This document shows, piece by piece, positions 9,301 through 23,104 of a stretch of DNA of 23,495 nt. Below the pieces are notes generated by a model. The model made no database searches. It was not told the origin of the DNA and saw only the letters and a list, made by a program, of their open reading frames with translations. The position numbers and the translations under genes are program-made. The number at the start of each line of letters is the position of its first letter. The first letter of the stretch is position 1. Origin of the DNA: a virus; IMG/VR virus record IMGVR_UViG_3300025645_000460, positions 1 to 23,495 of that record. One strand, 5' to 3'.

Positions 9301-9679
9301 GTGGGTTAATTGGAAAGAGGCAAACCAAGAAGAATGGGACAGCTACACACCTGAGCTAAAGCAGACCAAACTCAAAGCGTTTATTGCTAGTGTAAGACAA
9401 GAGACTACTACTAACGTAACAGAGTCCTTCAACTACCTAGCTGAAAATAACCCTGTCAAGGTTGCTGGTTATATCAAGAATATGTATGTAACCTCCATAA
9501 GGAAGCATACTAGAGAAGATGGTATTGCACCTTCAGAGATTATTAAAGCTGCATTTGGGCAGACCAATGAAGAATACATTGCTGGTGCTGAGAGCTTAGA
9601 GGATCAGCTTACTAGGATGCAGCAGATTATGTATGCCTTGGATAATGCTGCTAAAGCAAACGTGCAAGAGTTTAAGTAA
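6329..9679 (+). CDS. Large internal virion (ejection) protein, 1116 residues
   Basis: This is the largest gene of the window and the last of the rightward block, ending 19 bases before the terminator hairpin. Residues 1-130 are polar and helical. Residues about 130-240 are rich in Ala, Gly and Thr with several amphipathic or weakly hydrophobic helices (for example VALSTIAGGVLGGAGGAA), able to touch membranes. The middle is mostly helical and includes a hydrophobic stretch with KAVPFLVSSAMPFPRF (about 674-689). The C-terminal third is polar. No transglycosylase motif is present; that activity is encoded at 3498-4418. Size, order and composition match the gp16-like channel protein of podoviruses, which crosses the inner membrane during DNA entry. 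Homology to gp16 itself cannot be shown here. Confidence 0.7.
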   Translation: MADENDLYYNRVTGKKINDIQSDVGFQRDLIKFFQSDRHGYSKETILEKGLPGLVEDFAEHMRYQENNEVSAIKDLYFASNKEERTAESRDAFGRLMAAWDNSEGTEMSFGKAFDYVESIGSAPSTWASLITAGTGKLAAKVTSKGAQIATRRAVAATIAKETAGQAARRGAIQGAVAEGAFSGATEAINQGTRVNAIEGYDFDTGTVALSTIAGGVLGGAGGAATRMVTSKKANQAIDLLEERAKGITVRATEQATAAKGTVSAAPRNLLDQFIEQMTDYNTTVAKAGKALKKGAAKLDPLPTDVVEAGELIRRTVMNGPTDGKTKTFTVGGLSSDAVQSLAAAYVDIHTHFKADPDKRISNIIADAIAEGRMDDVEAVKVIREKYGLSTDEFSHVFMAELSNAGRLLNAAGQVAKKTKPGTAQPSKKALDQAQAKFDGLVGNAKILFAKRVSTVSDEKVDDVVKNIAKDKVAGLEFLKGVDSLRIGFMTSQLATTAANVAFSGGRLTVDVADRFFYNITKGQNPFKGTFSTIGALTWDKYTADALALMADTDAPESIGRLISDVFKSEAIEGSSKAAKIGQTVNYFNGLTDNIFKKAVLLSSIDRQLMDLGDEALGKSFKDFTKKNLTLDKLPDDVVKNAVNDALEYTFQKSYRGEKTYFAKGSQAVMKAHKAVPFLVSSAMPFPRFIANQLEFLHDYMPGVGVLGIGREMLYGAVESKSMQDRIARQMTGVALLSSAYAFRTTQGTESKYNQYVDDDGVHDLSRIAGPMNVFLLVADAIYRYKNEEELDYSAYKMGVELAELTGSTGFIPDSSPVMNIFKALTTGEDIKAVGTYLPDFIATFTYPLATFNDVYGQIDPRSSEKPYTKIIGGEETVNFFDLIEVKASTVARASRFIPDVPWSQINESLEGNYDLQYFTPFNNQSIRKVNPLVTQFTGVTNTPKQSEIQADINRFNLEEYKLSMPNENPSIDYAVNFLLSSTEHVDLPKQWVNWKEANQEEWDSYTPELKQTKLKAFIASVRQETTTNVTESFNYLAENNPVKVAGYIKNMYVTSIRKHTREDGIAPSEIIKAAFGQTNEEYIAGAESLEDQLTRMQQIMYALDNAAKANVQEFK

Positions 9680-9698
9680 AACACTACTCCACAATAAG

Positions 9699-9731
9699 AA
9701 AGAGGGCGGCACATAAAGTGACCGCCCTTTT
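9699..9731 (+). terminator. Rho-independent terminator at the convergence of the two blocks
   Basis: GGGCGG (9704-9709) pairs with CCGCCC (9722-9727). An inner CAC/GTG pairing leaves an ATAAA loop, and TTTT follows. It ends the rightward virion transcript. The opposite strand gives the same hairpin followed by a T-rich tract, so it may also stop leftward transcription from 9817 and beyond. The rest of the gap, 9680-9816, holds no open frame but has the promoter-like element listed separately. Confidence 0.85.
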
Positions 9732-9816: not shown

Positions 9817-10059
9817 TTAGTCCTGCCACTCTACAGGGGTTACTAACTCTTTGATGCCATGAGTATCTACAGCATGATTAATCCAGAAGCCAAACTCTGC
9901 CAAGCTTTGTAGTGCATGGTCTCGTTCTTTGGTATCATGAACATTATCTTTTACGTACTCCAAAGTAGGAAGCATGTATTCTGCTAGCGCTGCTTTAAAT
10001 AGTTTAGCAGGACTCCGTTCACTATTCATAAACTCAATAGCCTCATCTTCTAAGCCCAT
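9817..10059 (-). CDS. 80-residue acidic helical protein, resembles the Acb2/Tad1 hairpin family
   Basis: This is the last gene of the leftward block. The protein is mostly helical and acidic. Its second half contains KERDHALQSLAEFGFWINHA, close by eye to the core of phage Acb2/Tad1-type proteins (pattern roughly S-R-E-x-S-x-A-x-x-x-L-E-E-A-x-x-W-x-x-x-A-I). Those proteins bind cyclic oligonucleotide or cADPR-like signals and blunt CBASS or Thoeris defence. The length of 80 residues fits single-domain members. The gene has its own near-consensus promoter with a dyad, and AAGGGG upstream of the ATG as ribosome site, so it can be made in high amount independently of the operon. The family call is tentative; the alternative is an unrelated small phage helical-hairpin protein. 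Confidence 0.4.
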   Translation of the reverse strand: MGLEDEAIEFMNSERSPAKLFKAALAEYMLPTLEYVKDNVHDTKERDHALQSLAEFGFWINHAVDTHGIKELVTPVEWQD

Positions 10060-10079
10060 AAGTAACCCCTTATTGTTGA

Positions 10080-10126
10080 TTGACGCTAACCAGTAGAATT
10101 ATACTATTAGTGCTAGCTAGCGTCAA
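10080..10126. repeat. 9-base inverted repeat flanking the -10 box (operator candidate)
   Basis: TTGACGCTA (10080-10088) is repeated inverted as TAGCGTCAA (10118-10126), with 29 bases between. The right arm contains the -35 box, and the left arm lies just after the start of transcription. A GCTAGCTAGC palindrome (10112-10121) overlaps the right arm. The layout suits a repressor that bridges or loops the promoter; the protein is unknown. Confidence 0.5.
10098..10126 (-). promoter_or_regulatory. Near-consensus sigma70 promoter for the 80-residue gene
   Basis: On the minus strand: TTGACG (10121-10126), 17-base spacer, TATAAT (10098-10103). It sits in the 71-base gap between the PhoH gene and the 80-residue gene, giving a leader of about 30 bases. 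The perfect -10 and 5/6 -35 make it one of the strongest promoters in the window. Confidence 0.7.
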
Positions 10127-10130
10127 CCTT

Positions 10131-10841
10131 TTAAATACCTTCTTTCATAAATACTTTTACCCACTCAGCACAGATACCACTACGTACAATATCATCTACA
10201 CCAAACTCTACTACTGGTACATCTAGCATGTGCTTCTTAGCAAGGTGGATAATCTTGGCTAGACCAGATGTACCTTTCAGGTCTGACTGTTGGATGTCAC
10301 CATTGAGCACAATAGTGCTACCCTCACCAACACGGGTTAGCAACATCTTGATCTCTGGGATCTCAATATTCTGTGCCTCGTCTACAATGATGAAAGCATT
10401 ATCAAAGCTTCGACCTCGCATGAGCGCTAATGTAGCAACCTCAATGTTACCAGCTTTCAGGCCCGTCTCTACCGTACCCTTGCCTAAATGCTTGGTGAGT
10501 ACGTCCAGCACAGGTAAGGCCCAAGGTTGAGCTTTCTCTTCTAGTGTGCCTGGCAAGAACCCAATGTCTTTACCTACAGCTACGTGAGGCCGTGTGATAA
10601 CGATCTTGTCAATCTCTTTGAGAGTATACAGATCAGCAGCACATGTAGCTGTGACGTAGGTCTTACCCGTACCAGCAGGGCCAAGTATAAGCACTTGCTG
10701 GCTTGCGTTGATGGCTTGGATAAGCTTTCCTTGGTTTACCGTCTTAGGTACAATACCAGATACAGACTTTGACTCTGCTCCTTTGTACGTAGTCTTACGG
10801 CGGGAGCGTGTCTGCTTCTTTGGTGGCTCTTTATCGTTCAT
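10131..10841 (-). CDS. phoH: PhoH-like P-loop ATPase
   Basis: The protein has 236 residues. A basic N-terminal tail (5-20) precedes a PhoH-family ATPase domain: Walker A GPAGTGKT (54-61), the family block ITRPHVAVGKDIGFLPGTLEEK (about 82-103), Walker B IIVDEAQN (151-158), and LNGDIQQSDLKG with the sensor residues. The RNA or DNA target is not known. PhoH genes are widespread in marine phages, and their role there, despite the phosphate-stress name, is unsettled; RNA metabolism or helicase-like work has been proposed. The gene overlaps the upstream gene by 4 bases and is followed by the promoter at 10098-10126. Confidence 0.92.
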   Translation of the reverse strand: MNDKEPPKKQTRSRRKTTYKGAESKSVSGIVPKTVNQGKLIQAINASQQVLILGPAGTGKTYVTATCAADLYTLKEIDKIVITRPHVAVGKDIGFLPGTLEEKAQPWALPVLDVLTKHLGKGTVETGLKAGNIEVATLALMRGRSFDNAFIIVDEAQNIEIPEIKMLLTRVGEGSTIVLNGDIQQSDLKGTSGLAKIIHLAKKHMLDVPVVEFGVDDIVRSGICAEWVKVFMKEGI

Positions 10842-11391: not shown

Positions 11392-11468
11392 TGGTCCTCC
11401 CTACAGGACTCGAACCTGTAACCTAGTCATTAGAAGTGACTTGCTCTGTCCAGTTGAGCTAAGGAAGG
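11392..11468 (-). tRNA. tRNA-Arg (anticodon UCU)
   Basis: All four arms fold: acceptor CCTTCCT/AGGGAGG, D arm GCTC...GAGC, anticodon arm AGTCA-CTTCTAA-TGACT with TCT at positions 34-36, a 5-base variable loop, and T arm ACAGG-TTCGAGT-CCTGT. The discriminator is A, and CCA is encoded (11392-11394). It reads AGA codons, which are common in the phage genes here and usually rare in GC-rich marine alphaproteobacteria, so it probably helps translate phage genes. Confidence 0.93.
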
Positions 11469-14266: not shown

Positions 14267-14436
14267 CCTAGTTCCTTCACTTTTAGGTTTCTGATATGCA
14301 TGTCATTGTAATCATACATAATATCTTCAACTGTATCTCTTACATCATCTTCATAGGCAGACGGATCAGCGGATAGCACATGGCTAGCAGCCTCAATATC
14401 CGCTACAAAGGTAATGCTGAAAGTCTTCTTACTCAT
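14263..14436 (-). CDS. Small acidic protein, 57 residues, unknown
   Basis: The frame runs from ATG at 14436 to TGA at 14263 and begins MSKKTFSITFVADIE. It is tied to both neighbours by ATGA overlaps and filled without gap, and AAGGGG lies upstream of the start, which argues that it is real. The composition is acidic in the middle (EDDVRDTVEDIMYDYND). A strand-helix alternation is possible. No family is recognised. The location, between the DUF5664-like gene and MazG, suggests a role in nucleotide metabolism or regulation, but nothing in the sequence proves it. Confidence 0.75.
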   Translation of the reverse strand: MSKKTFSITFVADIEAASHVLSADPSAYEDDVRDTVEDIMYDYNDMHIRNLKVKELG

Positions 14437-14732
14437 TTGTAATCCCCTTGCTCAATCTTGATCTGGAGATTAGCTAATGCTCTCCAAGCTACCTCCGCCC
14501 AATCTCCATCTAACATGTGACGCATCATGGAGTCAAGATGATCCATAGACTTGGTTTTATCCCAATGCAGTGTGTTAGGTGTTTGTCCATGTTGAAGGCC
14601 ACCCGCAAGAGATAACTTAGCAATGCATACCAGTGCATCAGGGAAGTAGTTAATCACCCCTGTATAGATTGGTATAGCTTTACGTTCCATTGCATCCGTT
14701 GGTAATACTGATGGCTTAGTAAGGTCAGTCAC
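14433..14732 (-). CDS. DUF5664-like protein (dATP/dGTP diphosphohydrolase N-terminal family)
   Basis: The protein has 99 residues from the GTG at 14732, which overlaps the endonuclease stop by 8 bases and has AAGGG upstream. An ATG at 14789 would add 19 residues that merely shadow the endonuclease frame. The core is ERKAIPIYTGVINYFPDAL (15-33), AGGLQHG, HWDKTKSMDHLDSMMRHM (57-73), ending in a helix. This resembles the phage family named dATP/dGTP diphosphohydrolase N-terminal (DUF5664), with conserved His, Asp and Arg in the last blocks. In phages with 2-aminoadenine DNA a related MazZ enzyme removes dATP and dGTP; no PurZ is in this window, so Z-DNA is not indicated. The enzyme activity here is only presumed. 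Confidence 0.65.
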   Translation of the reverse strand: MTDLTKPSVLPTDAMERKAIPIYTGVINYFPDALVCIAKLSLAGGLQHGQTPNTLHWDKTKSMDHLDSMMRHMLDGDWAEVAWRALANLQIKIEQGDYK

Positions 14733-15171
14733 TCTTTTTCCCTTCTTTGAGTTTAATATGTAATTCTGTGGGTAATGAACCTGGTTCATCTAGCCAAGCT
14801 TCAGGTGGAAACTTTTCTGCCCATAGGAACCCATGCTTGTCACACCAAGCACCATATGTAGTTTTAGAATTAGGTGTGATCTTAGTAGAAGCACGAGAGA
14901 ATACAAACCTGATATCTAGCTCAGGGTGTTGCTCTTTAATGATTAAGTGCTTCTGCCTGTCATCGTTTTCGAAGTACCCTTTGGTCTCGATTATGATGCC
15001 ATTGTCTAGCAGGAAGTCAGGCTTATAGCTCCTGATCTTAGTAGGAAGGTACTCAATCTTCAGTACCTCATACCTGACTTCCTTTTGACGCTCTTTTAGG
15101 TAAGCATTGTTCTTTACCTCCAGCCCACTCTTATATGCGCTGGAGGCGTGGCGTCTAGGCTTCTTGGGCAT
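14725..15171 (-). CDS. T7-type endonuclease I (Holliday junction resolvase)
   Basis: The protein has 148 residues, almost the length of T7 gp3. Landmarks align throughout: SGLE with Glu18; YKPDFLLDNGIIIETKGYF holding Asp52, Glu62 and Lys64, the catalytic PD-(D/E)XK triad equivalent to T7 Asp55, Glu65 and Lys67; DDRQKHLIIKEQHPELDIRF; and YGAWCDKHG near the end. The enzyme resolves branched DNA and trims replication and packaging intermediates, and in T7 it also breaks host DNA. It lies one base after the Cas4-like nuclease gene and before the DUF5664-like gene, within the replication operon. The basic N terminus (PKKPRRH) may help DNA binding. Confidence 0.93.
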   Translation of the reverse strand: MPKKPRRHASSAYKSGLEVKNNAYLKERQKEVRYEVLKIEYLPTKIRSYKPDFLLDNGIIIETKGYFENDDRQKHLIIKEQHPELDIRFVFSRASTKITPNSKTTYGAWCDKHGFLWAEKFPPEAWLDEPGSLPTELHIKLKEGKKSD

Positions 15172-15172
15172 A

Positions 15173-16027
15173 CTAGTCCCCTTTGATATGGATGTAGTCT
15201 ACAAGCCCTGCTGTCTTAGCCTTAGATACCAAGGATGCTTGTGTCTTAAGCTCAGGCCAACACTTCTTCTTATGACCACAGAAGGTACACTCCATGCAGA
15301 GCTTAGTATTACCAGACTCTTTCTTGTAGTATGTCTCCTTGACAGGTTCAAAGCAACGCTCAAAAGGCTCATCCTGATTGATGTAGTTTACGTTCTCAAC
15401 AATCTTATCCATCTCTTCTTCCATAGAGATTTGCTCAGCGTTGATATACTTAAACTCACCATTCTGTTTGTTTACTACCCACCAGCCCCCTAGCTTCTTA
15501 TCAGCAGCAGTAGCGTAACCTACTAGCTGTGACATATAACCAAAGCTATCATTAGCACGTAATGTTTCAGCATCTTTGAACTTGTTCTGGTACGAGTAAG
15601 GAGAAGCAGATTTGATATCATCTACTCGACCATCTAGCACCAAATCATACTCACCATTGATGACAGTACCATCAGGCAAGTTAAGCTTTACGTAAGCAGC
15701 ATCTTCAAACTTTACACCAGAGGCCCGTAAGATACCTTTGAATACCGCCTCCACAATATCACCAATTAACATGTTCATGATGAAGTGTGGGGGTGGTGGT
15801 ATCTTATCTACAGGATTGTTCTTCTCAAACCAGAGTTGGCACTTCGGACGCCCAATGTTGGACATCCGAAGCCTGAACGCATCCCGTGGACCGCTGTTGA
15901 ACTGTTTGTTTAGTCCAGCTGCTACATCAGAAGCGACACGTTGAATGATCTCCTCCGACATAGAAGCTTTACCATTAACTGCATCCTTAAGAAACAGTTC
16001 GATAGGCAGTTCAGCAGCGTGTTCCAT
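15173..16027 (-). CDS. Cas4/RecB-like PD-(D/E)XK nuclease with probable Fe-S cluster
   Basis: The protein has 284 residues. The nuclease core shows GEYDLVLDG (Asp128), VDDIKSAS (Asp137, Lys139) and the RecB motif Q-x-x-x-Y (Gln167, Tyr171). One Cys lies ahead of the core (Cys63) and a group follows it (Cys244, Cys247, Cys250, Cys256 in CMECTFCGHKKKC). This is the one-plus-three cysteine layout that holds a 4Fe-4S cluster in Cas4 and AddB/Dna2 nucleases. By position it may be the exonuclease that resects DNA for recombination and recycles host nucleotides, like T7 gp6 in role but not in fold. The gene overlaps its upstream neighbour by one base (TAATG). No CRISPR array is present, so a link to CRISPR is not suggested. 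Confidence 0.85.
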   Translation of the reverse strand: MEHAAELPIELFLKDAVNGKASMSEEIIQRVASDVAAGLNKQFNSGPRDAFRLRMSNIGRPKCQLWFEKNNPVDKIPPPPHFIMNMLIGDIVEAVFKGILRASGVKFEDAAYVKLNLPDGTVINGEYDLVLDGRVDDIKSASPYSYQNKFKDAETLRANDSFGYMSQLVGYATAADKKLGGWWVVNKQNGEFKYINAEQISMEEEMDKIVENVNYINQDEPFERCFEPVKETYYKKESGNTKLCMECTFCGHKKKCWPELKTQASLVSKAKTAGLVDYIHIKGD

Positions 16028-16893
16028 TAGTCAGCTGCCTCCACATTTACGAATGAGCCTACAAGATCTGCATCCTCTTTAGAAAGCTTGGCACTGTTAT
16101 TCTCTGACCACTTGTCCAGAACATAAGTATTCGTGCGGCTAATGTAATCGAAGAAAGATCGAACTAGATCCTGATCTGCTTCTGTAACACTAGCTTCATC
16201 TAGCAGGGTCACTGTAGTTGTACCAAGTTCACCACCATCTGGTTTCGTAGTAACATCAGCAGTTAAAAGCATAGTGTACTGGATAGGTAACAAGCCTTTA
16301 CGTGTGATCTTAGCCAGAGCTTCATTGATGTTCTTTGTACCCTGTGTGCTACGTACTTCCATGAGGAATGGGGTAGGAGTAGAAGGATCACTGCCAACAG
16401 GGTTACCTTGTTCATCCTTTGGATCATTCATGGTAACTTCACCCATGATAACCGTCACACGCTTGACTGCTCTCATGATGTCTTTAGTTGCTTTAGGAAG
16501 AGCTTCCCAGTCCTTGACGTAACCAGACGGACGACCCAGGTTGAACCCACCTTTGGTATCCTTCAGATCATTGTACACATCATTAGCCATGACAGTCTTG
16601 TACATCACCTTAGCCTCAGAGTCCCACATACCCCAGTGCATACGCTTAGCAAAGACACGTACTGTTACGTCCTCTGAATACACGATGGAGCCATCTGTGT
16701 TATTGAGTCGATAAGCACCTACAGGTACTACCTCAGTCTTTACCTTCTTACCGTTGATCTCTTCAACACCCATGATAGCTGTCTGCTGTAGAGCAAGACG
16801 TGCAATACTAGCTTTCGCTTGTGTCACAGATGTTCCCATCATCTCCGCCAAGGCGGGATCAAGTTTGATCGTTGTTGCTAGTGCATTAGTCAT
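16027..16893 (-). CDS. Unknown replication-module protein, possible ssDNA-binding protein
   Basis: The protein has 288 residues. No catalytic motif was recognised. The central region alternates strand-like segments (GAYRLNN, VTVRVFAKRMHWGMW, RVTVIMGEVTM, QYTMLLTADVTT), consistent with a beta-rich fold such as an OB barrel, and it has several aromatic and basic positions. The C-terminal tail (KEDADLVGSFVNVEAAD) is mildly acidic. It lies between DNA polymerase and the recombination nuclease and has its own promoter, so it is probably needed in quantity. Those are the usual features of a phage single-strand-binding protein, replacing T7 gp2.5. This is inference from context, not homology. Confidence 0.5.
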   Translation of the reverse strand: MTNALATTIKLDPALAEMMGTSVTQAKASIARLALQQTAIMGVEEINGKKVKTEVVPVGAYRLNNTDGSIVYSEDVTVRVFAKRMHWGMWDSEAKVMYKTVMANDVYNDLKDTKGGFNLGRPSGYVKDWEALPKATKDIMRAVKRVTVIMGEVTMNDPKDEQGNPVGSDPSTPTPFLMEVRSTQGTKNINEALAKITRKGLLPIQYTMLLTADVTTKPDGGELGTTTVTLLDEASVTEADQDLVRSFFDYISRTNTYVLDKWSENNSAKLSKEDADLVGSFVNVEAAD

Positions 16894-16928: not shown

Positions 16929-16957
16929 GTTATACTATCAAACGTCTTTTGTGTCAA
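16929..16957 (-). promoter_or_regulatory. Sigma70-type promoter for the putative ssDNA-binding gene
   Basis: On the minus strand: TTGACA (16952-16957), 17-base spacer, TATAAC (16929-16934). The -35 box lies in the last codons of the DNA polymerase gene. The leader is short and has AAAGGATG before the ATG at 16893. Perfect -35, 5/6 -10 and ideal spacing make it likely. Confidence 0.7.
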
Positions 16958-18986
16958 GCCAGTTGGGGCCAATCTTAGCTTCGAGAAGTAGTGGTACATT
17001 CATCTCAATGCCATAGGCGTCCATAACAAGTTTGTTTAGGCCTGTGTTCAGATCGTCGATAATGCCAATGACAATAGCCCGTTCTTCTGGGTGTATGTCA
17101 ATCACGGTGGAGTCATGCACAGTATTTACCAAGCAAGACTGGTAAGGTGCTAGACGCCTATCCAACTCAAGAATAACAACAGGTACAACATCACCTGTAG
17201 CAAAGCCTTGAACTGGATAATTCTTGATCATCGTAAAGTGTGTGGGTGATCCATTAGCTCTACGAGTTACGTCAGGGAAGGCGTACTGTCTGCCTGACAC
17301 GTTGGTAATCTTCTGGAAGCGTATGGCTTCGTCCCCTAGCTTCTTATGCCAAGCAGCAATCCCTTCATACTTCTTGTTGAAGTGGATGTAGTAGGCCTCT
17401 TCTGCCTTGCTTCTGCCATAACCTGTAGCCCCGAAGAGTGGAGCAAAGGTATGCTCTTTAGCAGCCTGACGTGTAGTGGGCTGTCCTGCATCTGTGATAA
17501 CCTTTGCAGTGTAGCTGTGAACGTCGAAGCCATCTGCAATCTCTGCCATAGCTAAGACATCCTGTGATAGGAATGCAGCAGTACGGAACTCTAGCTGAGC
17601 AAAGTCTGCCTCCATTATCTCTCCACCATCCCAACGTGATATGAACACACGCTTAACAGGGAATGTACCACCACGAGGCATGTTCTGCATGTTAGGGTTA
17701 CGACCACTAAACCGTCCAGTAGCAGTGATGTGTTGCGTCAAGCTTACGTGTAGTAGGCCATCATCCTTCGTATATACATCAATACCCTCTACGAAGGATG
17801 ACAAGTAGCTAGACACAGCTGACATTCGACGCAGGTCTGTCATGAAGTCCATAGCTTCTGTCATGCCATTGTTCTTAGCAGTAGCAATCAAGATCGTCAG
17901 GTTGTCTTTACCTGTGCCAAACCCGTTAGCTGTTACCCACTCCTTGCTAGGTGCAGAGAACTTTAGTCCAGCTAACTCATTGAGTTCTTTGAGTTTAAAT
18001 CCTCTGGACTCACACTCTTTACAATGGTTAGGCTTCTTGAATTTGCTGCCATCCTTCTTGGTTTTAAAGACACGCCCAGCTCCATCACAAGTTGGACACG
18101 TGTAGGCCTCTGTTTTACGGATAGCTGTAGTGTTAGACGACACGGCATCCTTAAACTCCTTGGGTGTCTTTGTGAAGTTGAAGAGGTCTACCCACTCTTT
18201 CTTGTTGTTAACCTTACGTGAGAACACTACCTGGGACATCTGCTCAGGCGAGTTTAGGTTAATTGGAGTGGCACCCATGAGATGCCTTACCTGTGCTTGA
18301 AGCCGTGTCTCAATGTCTGCAAGCTCACGTTCAAATAACTCACGTACAGCAGCAAGCGCTGGGCGGTCTACCTTGATGCCATCCATATACATACGAGATA
18401 GAACTACACATACCTCATTTGTAATGTCACGGATCTTAATAAGACTAGCACTCTCAGGCTTAGCATAGTCAGCCTCTTGGTCATGGAAGAGATCACAAGT
18501 AGTATCTAGGTCAGAGATCAGATACTCAGACAATTCTGCTAGAGGTATCTGGTTGGTATTAAAGCCATCCCTATAGTAACGCTTCAGGGTATCTCCCTTA
18601 CGGTGAGATAACTCTCTACGGTCAGCACAGCCCTCTAGACTAAGTGGATACTTCTGACCTCGCAGTAATACATACTCAGCCAGCATGGTGTCATAGATTA
18701 GTCCACTATACTTAAAGCCTGACTCCCAAATCCAAGGTAAGTCATGCTGAGCATTGTGCATGATAAGAAGTGTAGTCTCATCAAGGAAAGCTTGAAGTAA
18801 CTTAAAGGCAGTACCCTTGGTGTCCTTCTGCTCATCATGGTTAAAGTTCAAGACATGCCGTTCTTGCTGACGATCCACATTCTTAATGCCAACCTGTACT
18901 AAATAGTTACCCGTCTCATAGGGGTCTCCGTGGATCTTGCCACCACGAGTAGTGATAGTGTTTTCTACATCAAGAACTAATCTCAT
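16938..18986 (-). CDS. Family A DNA polymerase with 3'-5' exonuclease and inserted zinc finger
   Basis: The protein has 682 residues. Exonuclease domain: Asp6/Glu8 (LDVENT), Asn78/Asp82 (IMHNAQHD), Tyr155/Asp159 (EYLISD). Polymerase domain: motif A with Asp461 (MEADFAQLEFR), the O helix with Arg506, Lys510 and Phe514 (RQAAKEHTF), and motif C His624-Asp625-Ser626, where Ser replaces the usual Glu. An unusual insert at about 297-325 carries two CxxC pairs (Cys297/300, Cys322/325), a likely zinc knuckle at the thumb. Phe514 stands at the E. coli 762 position, which affects fidelity and ddNTP discrimination. No 5'-3' exonuclease domain is present, as in T7 gp5. The start is preceded by AGGAAGAGGA. 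It is the replicative polymerase. Confidence 0.93.
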   Translation of the reverse strand: MRLVLDVENTITTRGGKIHGDPYETGNYLVQVGIKNVDRQQERHVLNFNHDEQKDTKGTAFKLLQAFLDETTLLIMHNAQHDLPWIWESGFKYSGLIYDTMLAEYVLLRGQKYPLSLEGCADRRELSHRKGDTLKRYYRDGFNTNQIPLAELSEYLISDLDTTCDLFHDQEADYAKPESASLIKIRDITNEVCVVLSRMYMDGIKVDRPALAAVRELFERELADIETRLQAQVRHLMGATPINLNSPEQMSQVVFSRKVNNKKEWVDLFNFTKTPKEFKDAVSSNTTAIRKTEAYTCPTCDGAGRVFKTKKDGSKFKKPNHCKECESRGFKLKELNELAGLKFSAPSKEWVTANGFGTGKDNLTILIATAKNNGMTEAMDFMTDLRRMSAVSSYLSSFVEGIDVYTKDDGLLHVSLTQHITATGRFSGRNPNMQNMPRGGTFPVKRVFISRWDGGEIMEADFAQLEFRTAAFLSQDVLAMAEIADGFDVHSYTAKVITDAGQPTTRQAAKEHTFAPLFGATGYGRSKAEEAYYIHFNKKYEGIAAWHKKLGDEAIRFQKITNVSGRQYAFPDVTRRANGSPTHFTMIKNYPVQGFATGDVVPVVILELDRRLAPYQSCLVNTVHDSTVIDIHPEERAIVIGIIDDLNTGLNKLVMDAYGIEMNVPLLLEAKIGPNWLDTKDV

Positions 18987-22693: not shown

Positions 22694-22927
22694 CTATTTC
22701 TCCCCTTGATATTTTCGTTTAGCATCCTCGGCAGCCCAAGCCTCAGCACGAGCAGCATAAGCAGCCTCACGAGCGGCATAAGCATCCTCGGCAGCAACAT
22801 AAGCATCAGCACGAGCAGCATCAGCAGCAGCAGAAGCTGCAGCACGAGCAGTATAAGCAGCATTGGCAGCATCATAAGCTGCTTCAGCAGCATTACGAGC
22901 AGCTTTCAGGTCTTCAAGTTTAGTCAT
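22694..22927 (-). CDS. Ala-rich coiled-coil protein, 77 residues, intact tandem copy
   Basis: The protein begins MTKLEDLKAARNAAEAAYDA and is about 45% Ala with Arg, Asp, Glu and Tyr in regular spacing; it should be one long helix or coiled coil. It ends KYQGEK, where these codons also supply the GGGGAGA ribosome site of the next gene. An incomplete copy with the same start (MTKLEELKAA) and a related end lies immediately upstream, so the pair is a tandem duplication. There is no known family; low complexity makes homology searches unreliable. The spacing and strong start suggest it is translated. Confidence 0.65.
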   Translation of the reverse strand: MTKLEDLKAARNAAEAAYDAANAAYTARAAASAAADAARADAYVAAEDAYAAREAAYAARAEAWAAEDAKRKYQGEK

Positions 22928-23104
22928 TTTGTTTCTCCTCTTGGTATTTTAGCTCAGTATCATAATCAGCATACCAAGCAGCATTAGCAGCCGTGCAGCA
23001 GTACAAGCAGCGTTAGCAGTAGCAACACGAGAAGCATAAGCAGTATCATGGGCAGCATCATGGGCAAAATCATGGGCAGCTTTTAGTTCTTCAAGTTTAG
23101 TCAT
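22920..23104 (-). pseudogene. Frameshifted tandem copy of the Ala-rich gene
   Basis: From the ATG at 23104 the frame reads MTKLEELKAAHDFAHDAAHD, then Ala-rich to ...NAACTAAR, after which it changes into hydrophobic LLMLLGMLIMILS and stops at 22949. In the adjacent frame the Ala-rich sequence continues as AANAAWYADYDTELKYQEEK, the counterpart of AAYAARAEAWAAEDAKRKYQGEK in the intact copy, and ends at 22920. A single missing base near 22987 explains the break (CGG-GCT-GCT would restore it). Either the gene is decayed, or the 51-residue product with a hydrophobic tail is used. The sequence and the ribosome site GGAGA before the start look otherwise intact. No slippery heptamer was seen. Confidence 0.7.

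Follow-up and report, generated by a model that had tools for sequence, protein, structure and literature searches.

A probable divergent branch of the Acb2/Tad1 hairpin superfamily encoded behind phoH in HMO-2011-type roseophages

The DNA analysed here, referred to as the window, comprises 23,495 nucleotides of the viral record IMGVR_UViG_3300025645_000460 and is a fragment of an HMO-2011-type roseophage. Phages of this type have been described as both dominant and widespread in the sea. Zinc-finger-like motifs of CxxCxGxG type (CPTCDGAG and CKECESRGF) occur in a 682-aa ORF of the window (16938-18986), in line with the published description of a partial DnaJ domain in the DNA polymerase of the HMO-2011-type group (PMC6918029). 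The gene considered in this study closes the minus-strand block of the window, and the plus-strand structural block stops at 9679; the features of this region are collected in Table 1. An earlier note on this DNA had described an 80-residue protein with a quoted peptide, encoded by the last gene of its block, and both statements are borne out, since the ORF starts with ATG, contains the peptide KERDHALQSLAEFGFWINHA within its product and is terminal in the minus-strand block. Relatives likewise carry a G+C-rich repeat directly after the hairpin-protein gene.

Table 1. Features of the window at the hairpin-protein locus (a dot denotes that no strand applies).
Feature	Position	Strand	Basis
AGGGCGG...CCGCCCT inverted repeat between two convergent gene blocks, probable two-way terminator	9703..9728	.	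sequence, inference
Gene of an 80-aa predicted helical-hairpin protein, very probably a divergent relative of the Acb2/Tad1 hairpin superfamily	9817..10059	-	ORF, orthologues, profiles, AlphaFold
Shine-Dalgarno-like AAGGGG, 6 nt before ATG	10066..10071	-	sequence, inference
Inverted-repeat arm TAGCGTCAA (TTGACGCTA on the plus strand)	10080..10088	.	perfect 9-bp repeat
-10 hexamer TATAAT	10098..10103	-	sigma-70-type promoter match
Inverted-repeat arm TTGACGCTA (read on the minus strand), overlaps the -35 box	10118..10126	.	perfect 9-bp repeat
-35 hexamer TTGACG, 17-bp spacer to -10	10121..10126	-	sigma-70-type promoter match
phoH, conserved upstream neighbour	10131..10841	-	Pfam PhoH 219 bits and synteny

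The 80-codon ORF is a true gene, as orthologues are present in named phages and in many viral contigs. In CRP-2 and CRP-603 the orthologue follows phoH directly, and in CRP-207 it lies one gene further; in all three it is annotated only as a hypothetical protein. A first scan of viral contigs with the window protein as the sole query returned no relative, an alignment-based scan yielded 27 contigs with relatives, and a scan using PhoH as bait recovered 80 loci, of which 49 carry a member of the family, 26 do not over at least 300 bases downstream of phoH, and five were too short to be scored. The family profile did not find the gene in HMO-2011, CRP-1, CRP-345, CRP-3, CRP-212 or CRP-738, and in several contigs without the hairpin-protein gene a DUF3310 protein was observed. 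Because a member occurs in 49 of the 75 scorable phoH loci and was not found in these six named phages, the position after phoH is a variable slot, and the hairpin-protein gene is not part of the core of the whole HMO-2011-type group. Two scans of bacterial genomes, one with the family and the other with the ribonucleotide reductase of the window as a route to host genomes, produced no matches, and a literature search on HMO-2011 or roseophages together with Acb2 or anti-defence yielded no report of this gene among the matches listed. In addition, a protein of 72-73 aa occupies the same slot, approximately 320 bases after phoH, in 11 loci (L093, L094, L096, L099, L105, L110, L111, L112, L116, L118 and L121); its LEQEAxxF N-terminus is common to the hairpin family while the remainder differs (at most 10.7 bits), which may reflect either a shared N-terminal module or chance.

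The 71 bp between the hairpin-protein gene and phoH carry a promoter and a 9-bp inverted repeat. The near-perfect promoter reported previously holds, with TTGACG and TATAAT at a spacing of 17 bp (10126-10098, minus strand) giving an 11/12 match to a sigma-70-type promoter; for a random 71-bp stretch of the dinucleotide make-up of the window, the chance of a promoter of at least 11/12 is 0.00025. In all three lineages identified in which the gene has a non-coding leader of its own, a promoter match of 10/12 or 11/12 is present; these are the window, the group of phoH loci L122 and L124-L128, and the loci L068, L070 and L073; in the L122 group the -35 hexamer is unchanged and the spacer is different. 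Where the gene abuts phoH (gap of -4 to +1), the 120 bases upstream hold no match of 9/12 or better to a promoter, and in four other loci, in which 635-748 bases that may be partly coding lie between phoH and the gene, no promoter match was detected. A second 11/12 match on the minus strand of the window, TTGACA-17-TATAAC (16957-16929), precedes an ORF at 16027-16893.

The inverted repeat had been described as flanking the -10 box. The 9-bp repeat is indeed perfect, and its arms, 29 bp apart, lie on either side of that box; one arm, however, overlaps the -35 element, consisting of the -35 hexamer plus 3 bp, and the other begins 9 bp after the -10 box. It is unlikely that this repeat serves as the operator through which a phage or host repressor controls the gene, a reading that would be compatible with any function of the protein. 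Perfect arms placed over the -35 box and the start region, with a chance of 0.005 in a random 71 bp, would be expected of such an operator, but the other promoter-bearing lineages have different repeats or none (7% of such stretches contain a 7-bp repeat by chance), the window contains no further exact copy of the dyad, and an exact scan of viral contigs for the dyad pattern gave eight loci, close to the estimated chance number, with no convincing family member there. No close relative of the leader of the window was found for a comparison of conservation, and Rfam gave no match on this leader. Of the earlier proposal that the gene is expressed strongly and under control, the strong promoter is supported by its recurrence in other lineages, while an operator role for the dyad is not.

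The relationship of the protein to known families was assessed using sequence profiles. A profile search against Acb2/Tad1 models, suggested previously as a check, gave no match for the window protein by itself in Pfam, PHROGs, NCBIfam or PADLOC, whereas its relatives match PF24729 (Acb2_Tad1_hairpin) weakly. This model is matched by nine of the 23 family members, the most of any Pfam family, with a best E-value of 2.5e-4, and the best-scoring relative, L068, reaches 21.6 bits against a curated cut-off of 27 bits that no family member attains. PF24729 is a domain model, and to our knowledge most of its members have no tested function. Among PHROGs, phrog_1454 leads with 14 of the 23 members (best 1.8e-6), and three actinophage proteins of phrog_1454 themselves score 59.1, 76.6 and 78.3 bits on PF24729. 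These scans were blind, covering 24,736 Pfam and 38,880 PHROG models, and the leading families are those of the Acb2/Tad1 hairpin superfamily. Profile-profile comparison by hhalign of the family with an actinophage-type hairpin set gave probabilities of 93.7-95.8% and scores of 39-45, compared with maxima of 13.6-18.7 for column-shuffled targets and failure of reversed targets, in a comparison that is non-blind because a PDB hit of the family's own profile was the starting point for assembling the target sets. Even the window protein alone reached 71% and a score of 28.4 against this set, compared with a shuffled maximum of 15.9. In the profile alignment, the KERDHALQSLAEFGFWINHA peptide falls on the core of the second helix of the superfamily.

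A ranking test points in the same direction. Across the complete set of 8741 ORFs with 35 codons or more in the fetched loci, the family profile ranks PF24729 proteins highest after the family members themselves, and PF24729 proteins also take the next four places when the window protein is the only query (E 0.73 to 5). Six real PF24729 proteins score 23.0, 21.3, 16.5, 14.8, 13.7 and 7.1 bits with the family profile, and the best of 12,000 shuffled versions of these six scores 10.8 bits, so that one of the six, at 7.1 bits, does not stand out. Judged from these comparisons, the 80-aa protein is very probably homologous to the Acb2/Tad1 hairpin superfamily, in which it would form a divergent branch.

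Structure prediction agrees with the sequence evidence, although on its own it would not carry a claim of homology. AlphaFold models the window protein as all-helical, with helices at residues 3-11, 17-39 and 43-66 (pLDDT 76, pTM 0.49), and the branch member L024 as a two-helix hairpin (pLDDT 89); the helical hairpin expected by the earlier note is predicted in both proteins. In the Foldseek search of BFVD, seven of the 11 best matches are named Acb2/Tad1 hairpin proteins (E 0.34-0.96); all E-values are at least 0.29, with matches enriched in such proteins. Against the PDB, the L024 model places T4 Vs.4 at rank 5 (E 1.6) among unrelated hairpins, and Foldseek with the window protein's own model found no Acb2, its PDB matches being hepatitis B core proteins and other helical bundles that are not meaningful. 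The PDB matches all have E > 0.7 and are mixed with other hairpins and designed proteins, and no model is reached at its curated cut-off, as would be expected if the protein were an unrelated small helical hairpin whose likeness to Acb2/Tad1 reflects the convergence of simple two-helix sequences. This explanation is nevertheless very improbable, since column-shuffled and reversed controls fall far lower, the superfamily supplies the leading families in the two model collections, and the shuffled hairpin proteins stay at or below 10.8 bits when the real ones reach 13.7-23.0, the single exception at 7.1 bits notwithstanding.

Comparison with known systems defines the branch more closely. The actinophage proteins of PF24729/phrog_1454, such as Gordonia phage Anon gp46 and Mycobacterium phage Eureka gp101, resemble the branch in size and in their two-helix hairpin core and share with it the L/W/A positions of helix 2, with a profile similarity of 94-96%; in contrast to them, the branch lacks the P-x-G-R and T of the superfamily and is sub-threshold to PF24729. 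Acb2 (Pseudomonas PaMx/PaP2 type; T4 Vs.4) is, like the window protein, a small helical protein, and it forms a homo-hexamer with signal pockets between protomers (PMC10419184). The branch differs from Acb2 in lacking the IKGY motif and T68, and it shows no significant profile similarity to the Pseudomonas-type sequences; when six classical Acb2 sequences served as the only targets, hhalign scores were 15-21 and could not be separated from shuffled controls. Tad1 has in common with the branch the hairpin domain that gives PF24729 its name, and a search of PDB sequences with the deep family profile, which returned only chance-level matches, ranked it fourth as one weak match (E 0.8). Tad1 carries an N-terminal beta-sheet before its helices (PMC12043709), whereas the window protein is predicted to be all-helical. 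The window protein does not qualify as a classical Acb2 or Tad1, and the Acb2/Tad1 likeness claimed earlier survives as remote homology to the superfamily, not as a match to classical Acb2, to the Pfam cut-off or to the residues linked to ligand affinity.

These residues were compared solely on the basis of data for T4 Acb2, in which Y8A is binding-deficient and T68M lowers affinity (PMC12657230). T68 aligns with the threonine column of the superfamily, which in the branch is occupied by E in 14, K in eight and Q in one of 23 members, the window protein having Q51. Y8 belongs to the IKGY segment, which is missing from the branch as well as from the actinophage proteins, so that neither affinity residue of T4 Acb2 (Y8, T68) is found in the window branch. 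The arginine column of the superfamily is K in the window protein and mostly E or D in other branch members, and a swap in which the basic R46 of the branch replaces this arginine was considered, but R46 lies two positions off in the profile alignment. Within the branch, E4, E6, A7, F21, L53, W59 and G68 are invariant, and E45, A49 and H67 are almost invariant. If the hairpin is antiparallel, the first and the last conserved positions would come close to each other, and a pocket might be located there. Since the affinity-linked threonine and tyrosine are missing, any signal binding by the branch would have to work differently from the Acb2 mode, and the ligand is probably different as well.

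Of the known hairpins that do not belong to the branch, the one scoring highest with the family profile is SUFG_00048 of Sulfitobacter phage phiCB2047-B, also a roseobacter phage. It comprises 188 aa (L039:2039-2605) with two domains, RyR at 40.5 bits and the hairpin at 33.4 bits, both above the Pfam cut-offs; unlike the branch, it retains NGR and T, and it is approximately 30% identical to L024 over 43 residues. Phage RyR-domain proteins act on the cyclic ADP-ribose signals of the Thoeris system, degrading or sequestering them, and the homologues encoded by a Ruegeria and by a Pectobacterium phage are sponges (PMC13232231). The RyR fusion links a near relative of the branch to counter-defence by association only. 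SUFG_00048 itself could be a two-function counter-defence protein.

With regard to function, the proposal is that a small helical-hairpin protein of a putative divergent Acb2/Tad1 branch, carried by HMO-2011-type roseophages in the variable slot after phoH, would most likely assemble into an oligomer, which we infer may serve in counter-defence as a sponge that takes up a nucleotide-type immune signal stoichiometrically. Its pocket would differ from the classical Acb2 pocket, and the high level required of a sponge would come from the dedicated promoter. The variable slot is as expected of an accessory gene. A sponge-like action of the window protein is plausible, and we hold it tentatively, at slightly under even likelihood. 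It is possible, though on the doubtful side, that the protein is a true Acb2/Tad1 relative that has lost signal binding and performs another job, for example assisting nucleotide metabolism or binding a host protein; the ligand-linked threonine and tyrosine are not conserved, and the residues that are invariant in the branch are at other positions. Ligand residues, however, also vary in accepted members, as in the actinophage proteins without the N-terminal motif, and the variable slot, the strong promoter of the gene and the RyR-fused relative fit counter-defence at least equally. Returning to the sponge proposal, a stronger form, in which the hairpin sponges of HMO-2011-type phages make up a class of their own, with a remodelled pocket for a signal not bound by classical Acb2 and with their own promoter, seems distinctly unlikely. 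Should the branch bind defence signals, this would suggest that nucleotide-signal immunity is important for the hosts that these phages infect, and its altered pocket would provide a lead to a new ligand.

Several further features were recorded elsewhere in the window. The minus-strand block includes a tRNA-Arg with a TCT anticodon (11392-11468), and a Phage endonuclease I gene is located at 14725-15171 (minus strand, 168 bits). A weak match to a dATP/dGTP diphosphohydrolase N-terminal domain lies at 14433-14789 on the minus strand (18.5 bits against a cut-off of 27), and the structural block encodes an HlyC/RTX acyltransferase-family protein at 1072-1497 on the plus strand (53.8 bits, cut-off 25). 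Two adjoining short minus-strand ORFs (22694-22927 and 22949-23104) start with MTKLEDLKAA and MTKLEELKAA, respectively, and continue as Ala-rich sequences; they may be tandem copies.
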